Below are positions 59,777 through 62,618 of a stretch of DNA of 64,000 bases, piece by piece. Within the stretch, counting starts at the first letter, position 1; each line of letters begins with the position of its first letter. Location: positions 62,001 through 126,000 of the forward strand of contig JAIQFC010000015.1 of the NCBI GenBank assembly GCA_020073465.1, written 5' to 3'. The stretch comes from Terriglobia bacterium (GTDB lineage Bacteria; Acidobacteriota; Terriglobia; Terriglobales; Acidobacteriaceae). Under the pieces are notes generated by a model. It made no database searches, was not told the origin of the DNA, and saw only the letters and a program-made list of their open reading frames with translations. Position numbers and translations under genes: made by a program.

Positions 59777-60343
59777 ATGACCTGGATTCGAACTCTCTCC
59801 CTCTCCGAAGCTGACGAAAAGCTCCGCCAGGCAATCGAAGGCGAGAAATCGCTCTATCCCAAGGAATACGCTGATCCGGTGCACCCTGATCCTTCGGGCG
59901 CCTCGTCGATCGTCGGCTCGCACACGCTGATTCCCGACGCGCTTTATCACGCCTTTAGCACCTTCGGCGCGCTCATGTCACCCGACCTTCCTCTCGAGCG
60001 CCGCCAGCACGAGATGATCGCGACCGTGGTCTCGGTCACGAACCGGTGCGTCTATTGAATCGAGTCGCACGCAGAGTTTCTGCGTAGGGTGACGTTGGAT
60101 AAGGGACTAGTCGAGGCGCTGGAGAAGGATTACACGACCGCCCCGATCTCGGCCCAGGATCGGCTAATGCTCGACTTTGTGGTCAAACTGACCAAAGATG
60201 CAACCAAAGTCTGGAAGGATGATATCGAGGGCCTGCGCGCAGCTGGATTTGACGACCGCGGAATCCTGCAGATCACGCTGATCGCCTCCTGGTTCAACTA
60301 CATCAACCGCGTGGCGGACGCGCTGGGAGTGGGAAGAGAGTAG
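59777..60343 (+). CDS. AhpD-like peroxidase-related protein with in-frame TGA (probable selenocysteine)
   Basis: 188 residues if TGA at 60056-60058 is read as selenocysteine (U94). The protein is a carboxymuconolactone decarboxylase/AhpD-type peroxidase-related enzyme: helices before the redox motif ([16 protein letters not shown]), motif C91-V-Y-U94-I-E-S-H98 where relatives have CxxCxxxH, and an uninterrupted downstream half ([20 protein letters not shown]). A hairpin ACGCAGA-GTT-TCTGCGT (60069-60085) starts 10 bases after TGA, with a G opening the loop at +18, as bacterial SECIS elements require. The alternative, a nonsense mutation in a Cys codon, is less likely because everything else in both halves is intact. 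AAGG about 14 bases before the ATG may be the ribosome site. Confidence 0.8.
60069..60085 (+). promoter_or_regulatory. SECIS-like stem-loop following the in-frame TGA
   Basis: Seven-base-pair perfect stem (ACGCAGA / TCTGCGT) with a GTT loop starting 18 bases after the TGA. Bacterial SECIS elements have a short stem with a G in the first two loop positions about 16-37 bases after the codon. SelB-type recognition is inferred. Confidence 0.65.
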
Positions 60344-61557: not shown

Positions 61558-61694
61558 TATCAGCGGATATCGATACACGCTGCGGTTGATGTTTTGTCAG
61601 AAGCGGGCGTACCTGCAGCGGCCACATTGCAGTAGACGCTGGGCCACTGTGTTGTCTTGGCTGGATTCCAATTGAATTGAAGAGGAAGACCTCC

Positions 61695-62618
61695 ATGTCG
61701 CTCAATCACGATGTGAGGCTGGAAATTCGCCACCTGAAGCTGCTGGCTGCGGTGGCCGAGCAAGGCAGTGTCACGGAGGCAGGCCGGCGCCTGCACGTAA
61801 CCCAGTCCGCGCTGAGTCACCAGCTGCGCGATGCAGAAGAAAGGCTGGGAACCGCGCTATTTCTGCGCCTGGGCAAGAAGATGGTGCTCACCCCAGCGGG
61901 CGAGAAGCTCCTGGACTCGGCCCACAAGGTACTTGATGAACTCCGCACCGCCGAGGCCCAGATCGAAGGACTCGACGGCGACACGCGCGGTGTCATCCGT
62001 GTGAGCACCGAGTGCTACACCTGTTATCACTGGCTGCCTCCAGTGCTTAAGAAGTTCACCACGAAGTTCCCAGGCGTCGAAGTCAACATTGTGCTCGAAG
62101 CCACCGCGCACCCCATTGCCGCCTTGCTCGACGGCCAGATCGATGTCGCGGTCACCAGCTGTCGGCCGGGCAACAAGAGTCTTCGGCTCACACCTACGTG
62201 TGAGGACGAGTTGGTGATTGTCATGGACCCGCGCCACCGGCTGACGGCGTCCACTCACGTCCAGCCGCGCGACTTGGCGGGAGAGTCGGTCTTCTGCTAC
62301 CCGCCAAAAGAAGAAAGCACCCTGGTTCTGAAAGTGCTTCGTCCTGCCGGCGTCCAGCCCGCGCGGGTTATGGAAGTTCCGCTGACCGAGTCGATCGTTG
62401 ATATGGTGTCGGCTGGCCTGGGAGTAGCCCTTCTGGCGCGCTGGGCGGTCAAGAATTACCTGGCCAGTGGAAAGATTGTGACCCGGCCGCTGAACAAGAG
62501 TGGATTCCGGCGGCGCTGGTACGCCGCCACTTTGCGCACCCGCCCCATGACACCCTATCTGACGGAATTTATCAACCTGCTGGTGCGGAGCTGCTCGTTG
62601 GATTCGGTGCCGAGCTAG
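61695..62618 (+). CDS. LysR family regulator, MetR-like
   Basis: 307 residues. The HTH (IRHLKLLAAVAEQGSVTEAG, RRLHVTQSALSHQLRDAEERLG) is followed by a co-inducer domain whose STECYTCYHWLPPVLKKF segment corresponds to the ECHSCIQWLTP segment of E. coli MetR, the homocysteine-responsive regulator of methionine genes. The start at 61695 has AGAGGA upstream. It is 26 bases upstream of an acyl-CoA ligase gene and not next to methionine genes. Effector could be homocysteine or another amino acid metabolite. Confidence 0.88.
   Translation: MSLNHDVRLEIRHLKLLAAVAEQGSVTEAGRRLHVTQSALSHQLRDAEERLGTALFLRLGKKMVLTPAGEKLLDSAHKVLDELRTAEAQIEGLDGDTRGVIRVSTECYTCYHWLPPVLKKFTTKFPGVEVNIVLEATAHPIAALLDGQIDVAVTSCRPGNKSLRLTPTCEDELVIVMDPRHRLTASTHVQPRDLAGESVFCYPPKEESTLVLKVLRPAGVQPARVMEVPLTESIVDMVSAGLGVALLARWAVKNYLASGKIVTRPLNKSGFRRRWYAATLRTRPMTPYLTEFINLLVRSCSLDSVPS

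Follow-up and report, generated by a model that had tools for sequence, protein, structure and literature searches.

Gene Structure and Reading Frame

The window, meaning the whole stretch of 64,000 nucleotides that was analyzed, carries a predicted AhpD-like selenoprotein gene, which begins with an ATG at 59777, ends with a terminal TAG at 60341-60343 and contains a single in-frame TGA at codon 94 (Table 1). The read-through product has 188 residues, starting with MTWIRT and ending with GVGRE, and its active-site motif is spelled C91-V-Y-U94-I-E-S-H98. Under the standard code the gene is split into two ORFs (59777-60058 and 60089-60343), as the first-pass annotation had expected of a naive gene caller, and the positions that it gave for the gene, TGA, and hairpin were all recovered on rechecking. 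The gene looks broken by a stop codon, yet it is almost certainly whole.

Table 1. Positions of the predicted selenoprotein gene and its features in the window.
Feature	Position	Strand	Remarks
Predicted AhpD-like (TIGR01926 peroxidase-related) selenoprotein gene	59777..60343	+	188 aa; UGA at residue 94 predicted to be read as Sec
Predicted selenocysteine UGA codon, residue 94	60056..60058	+	TGA in best 80/80 homologues; Cys in 2pfx, 3c1l, 2oyo, 6k40, 2prr
Candidate SECIS hairpin, inside coding region	60069..60085	+	7-bp stem, loop GUU, loop G 60076 (+18)
Active-site motif C91-x-x-U94-x-x-x-H98	60047..60070	+	Five relay residues invariant in 21 aligned homologues
E79 codon	60011-60013	+	Glu of active-site set
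Downstream half, a separate ORF for a standard gene caller	60089..60343	+	dN/dS about 0.02-0.06

Family Membership and Active Site

The read-through protein matched the Pfam CMD family (E = 1e-9) and scored 112.3 bits (E = 2e-32) against the NCBIfam profile TIGR01926 "peroxidase-related enzyme", above its cut-off of 81.8. This match supports the family part of the earlier name "AhpD-like peroxidase", in which "peroxidase" should be taken as a family name and not as a measured activity. The selenoproteins described by the profiles AhpD_rel_CFYUT (NF041238) and NF041047, the latter a distant AhpD homologue, belong to the same superfamily and share the CxxU motif. However, the protein encoded here scored 56.8 bits against NF041238, below the cut-off of 175, and is much shorter (188 vs. 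357), and the NF041047 profile gave no match to it.

The peroxidase-related AhpD-core structures 2pfx, 3c1l, 2oyo, 6k40, and 2prr align with the protein across the TGA, over residues ~53-185, with CxxC...H in the same place, whereas they carry Cys at residue 94, where Sec is predicted here. Together with the Cys at this position in a homologue from genome G014, described below, this agrees with the initial proposal that the in-frame TGA falls on the second cysteine of the CxxC motif, and the recommended alignment with AhpD/CMD relatives placed Sec or Cys exactly there. The invariant relay residues (Table 1) are E79, C91, Y93, residue 94, and H98, with Glu 12 residues before Cys. The corresponding sets are Glu118, Cys130, His132, Cys133, and His137 in Mycobacterium tuberculosis AhpD and Glu36, Cys48, Tyr50, Cys51, and His55 in Pseudomonas aeruginosa PA0269 (PMC3141380). 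The relay Glu-12-Cys-x-(His/Tyr)-Cys-x3-His is shared with identical spacing, although overall identity is low and the second catalytic residue is Cys in those proteins instead of Sec. Because the AhpD proton-relay residues map exactly, Sec would occupy the second catalytic position, where it probably stands in for the catalytic cysteine. An AlphaFold2 model built with 21 homologues was too poor to use (mean pLDDT 53), so the geometry rests on sequence alignment.

Conservation of the UGA Codon and Selection on the Protein

Scanning of genome contigs showed that the best 80 GTDB loci (72-96% identity) all have TGA at residue 94 and no other stop; they span Acidobacteriota, Gemmatimonadota, and one Latescibacterota record. 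Across the phylum (396 genomes), homologues with one TGA extend down to 30-45% identity among the matches listed. Codon 94 was never found as TAA or TAG in place of TGA, and it is TGC where the machinery is missing. The dN/dS ratio is about 0.03 for both halves of the gene; against near relatives, where the ratio is computable, it is 0.02-0.06 for the downstream half and alike for the upstream half, and synonymous sites are highly diverged in both. Decay of the downstream half was looked for and strong purifying selection was found instead, which agrees with the earlier description of both halves as intact and means that the gene is not a pseudogene.

The Latescibacterota-labelled record (L060) holds a UGA homologue of 76% identity and represents either a transfer or a misbinned contig. 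Stops besides the TGA were seen in one distant homologue only among the matches listed (G275:C68:233-652), which has a TAA as well as the TGA inside the match and is possibly a decayed copy.

The SECIS-Like Hairpin

The hairpin ACGCAGA-GUU-UCUGCGU has seven Watson-Crick pairs, and its loop G is the 18th nucleotide after the A of the TGA. The perfect stem, GTT loop, and +18 loop G reported at first all held, the bacterial SECIS layout fits, and the stem covaries. For the single sequence, the folding z-score of -2.6 is modest and alone not strong. When the window frames broken by one TGA were counted under simple length limits (85 frames), only that of the selenoprotein gene had a SECIS-like stem longer than 4 bp (7 vs. 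≤4).

Much stronger evidence comes from the family. Among 67 non-redundant relatives, 64 have a stem that is 6 bp or longer and carries a loop G at about the expected distance, while codon shuffles predict 8. Codons 98-103 (CAC GCA GAG TTT CTG CGT; H98-R103) are nearly frozen in 96 TGA-bearing homologues, with a codon homozygosity of 0.94-1.00 against 0.26-0.59 expected and a synonymous identity of 97-100%; no other stretch of the gene is as strongly constrained, and most of the codons around them stay close to background. Between nine homologues and the window gene, pS is 0.00 in these codons and 0.43-0.88 elsewhere. In distant relatives (HGEDLR, HGAGLR, and others) the protein is altered and the stem is kept, with compensatory changes at stem pair 4 (C-G or G-C) and pair 7 (A-U or C-G). 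Pairing holds in 93.4% of cells across 26 diverse sequences and falls to 29-52% when the partner is slid by 1-3 columns, and the covariation score was reached in 0 of 500 shuffles; the pairs changed on both sides number two, a count that by itself is not above shuffles. Such conservation indicates that the hairpin is selected as RNA, and the family evidence puts both the SECIS-like hairpin and the TGA decisively beyond chance.

A shifted hairpin register was observed in distant UGA homologues (L155, L164, L165, L173; L145, L159, L166, L172), where the loop is ~22 or 27 nt away, counted from the first base of the UGA, suggesting that the SECIS has changed place during the evolution of the family. 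No Rfam family matches the hairpin, the sole match being a meaningless miRNA far below the gathering score. A covariance model of the gene's SECIS, searched in its own genome, matched only the selenoprotein gene and missed the SECIS of SelD, and is therefore unusable for listing other selenoproteins.

Selenocysteine Machinery and Co-occurrence Across the Phylum

The genome that carries the gene (5.9 Mb, 99.99% complete) was searched for selA, selB, selC, and selD, as had been advised, and all four are present: SelA (E = 5e-118), full-length SelB (E = 3e-114), tRNA-Sec with anticodon UCA, and SelD (E = 5e-106). The selD gene (C14:28565-29536, minus strand; L099) is itself a selenoprotein gene, with an in-frame UGA at the active site (KAAGUASKL); downstream of this UGA, a 7-bp stem closed by a GGC loop has the same layout as the SECIS of the AhpD-like gene. 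Sequence comparison thus brings together an intact gene under selection, a conserved UGA, a conserved and covarying putative SECIS, and the Sec machinery.

Among the matches listed, UGA-bearing homologues were found in 89 of 396 phylum genomes, picked by hand from the phylum-wide matches. SelB exceeded its cut-off in 85 of these 89 genomes vs. 169 of the 307 others, again among the matches listed (Fisher p = 1e-14, with genomes counted singly and kinship ignored). The exceptions without SelB are four. G242 and G277 have a full SelA, and G277 and G080 have tRNA-Sec, so the missing SelB is probably an assembly gap in these three; the fourth, G266, is a genome only 72% complete.

The nearest stop-less homologue among the matches listed (61% identity; L132, C125:5461-6015) comes from G014 and has TGC at codon 94 and Thr at residue 91 (TxxC). 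Its hairpin is broken, with 3 of 7 pairs, and its genome lacks SelA, has no SelB above the cut-off, and gave only a tRNA-Ser as the best tRNA-Sec match. A quick tree, fit for broad grouping only, puts it among the Sec forms without firm support. It likely reverted from Sec to Cys once the machinery had been lost.

Across the 80 loci, the neighbourhood of the gene showed no conserved operon that included a reductase or peroxiredoxin. A LysR-family regulator gene lies nearby in the window (61677-62618, plus strand); the ORF cluster that includes it is common to only three loci and is not a conserved partner. A conserved opposite-strand ORF over the 3' half of the gene was considered and set aside, since it most probably results from the constraint on high-GC codons.

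Discussion

In this study, we consider it very probable (about 0.97), judging from sequence comparison, that the gene encodes a full-length AhpD-like CMD oxidoreductase with hairpin-directed Sec at UGA-94 and peroxide handling by Cys91/Sec94. The following account of Sec insertion, of the steps in catalysis, and of substrate and reductant is inferred. UGA-94 would be decoded as Sec by SelB and tRNA-Sec under the direction of the hairpin that lies 10 nt after the UGA, and the product would act as an AhpD-like thiol/selenol oxidoreductase of the CMD superfamily that may either reduce peroxides itself or pass electrons on to a peroxidase, its Cys91/Sec94 couple working in a predicted five-residue proton relay (E79, C91, Y93, U94, H98). 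By analogy with known selenol chemistry, Sec94 would become a selenenic acid on attacking the peroxide bond; resolution by Cys91 would then give a selenenylsulfide, from which a thiol reductant of the cell would regenerate the couple. To our knowledge, activity in the AhpD-like family has been assayed for Cys proteins only and was sometimes weak.

Standard translation yields two ORFs, as would be seen if a nonsense mutation had split a normal AhpD-like gene and left a pseudogene. This explanation was rejected on UGA conservation and dN/dS and appears extremely improbable: TGA stands at the same codon in all of the best 80 relatives (identity as low as 72%) as well as in others of ~35-45% identity, purifying selection acts on both halves while their synonymous sites are highly diverged, and the extra stop is confined to one distant match among the matches listed. 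Bacteria generally read the UGA of selenoprotein genes with low efficiency, and some truncated by-product is to be expected from it, which would suit non-Sec read-through or a regulated termination at the UGA with a 93-residue product and a regulatory hairpin. We find this hardly credible, given that codon 94 is never TAA or TAG and turns to TGC where the machinery is missing, that the downstream half has conserved residues under strong selection, and that the UGA sits exactly at the catalytic cysteine.

Sec usually favours peroxide chemistry and all five AhpD proton-relay residues are invariant, both of which speak against the alternative that the selenoprotein is a thiol-disulfide adaptor, or catalyzes another CMD reaction, without being the peroxidase itself. 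This alternative is a real possibility, to which we give a little less than even odds. Members of TIGR01926 are named "peroxidase-related" only, AhpD has been presented as an adaptor protein for AhpC (PMC3141380), and PA0269, with the same Cys-x-Tyr-Cys...His set, showed measurable peroxidase activity with H2O2 at a modest reported rate (PMC3141380).

AhpD-like selenoproteins were first found in the Sargasso Sea (PMC1088965), CxxU forms also occur in Global Ocean data (PMC2398784), and a 2026 review names "AhpD-like protein, TIGR01926, CxxU" as a selenoprotein family (PMC13188914). The first-pass annotation was right that such proteins are known elsewhere and overstated the novelty, the TIGR01926 CxxU family being already listed (PMC13188914). 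The present gene is a solid further member of that family, with a profile score above the cut-off, CxxU, and, after the in-frame UGA, a hairpin whose small loop contains a G (PMC13188914; PMC1088965). Unlike the marine AhpD-like selenoproteins, its clade belongs to Acidobacteriota and other soil bacteria, with proteins of ~188 aa and an N-terminal MTWIRT... extension. A 2006 survey put the number of selenoprotein families in Acidobacteria at three (PMC1794560), and for one acidobacterium deep-Sep lists three selenoprotein genes that were already known (PMC12013277). A search that covered mainly the open literature found no paper on this AhpD-like clade in Acidobacteriota.

What is new is how widely such genes are distributed among Acidobacteriota and the soil bacteria related to them, with TIGR01926-like UGA homologues in ~22% and the close clade in ~7% of the sampled phylum genomes, among the matches listed. 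We lean towards the view that a large, mostly unannotated AhpD-like Sec clade is common in Acidobacteriota and related soil phyla, that Sec is ancestral in it, and that at least one lineage went back to Cys on loss of the machinery. Soil acidobacteria are abundant and biochemically little studied; many of their genomes have Sec machinery, and, since gene callers cut at the UGA, the client proteins of this machinery readily escape notice. This gene is a clear Sec client, for which machinery, SECIS, and conservation agree in one genome. The G014 homologue, as a likely natural Sec-to-Cys swap, offers a handle on what selenium contributes to AhpD chemistry.
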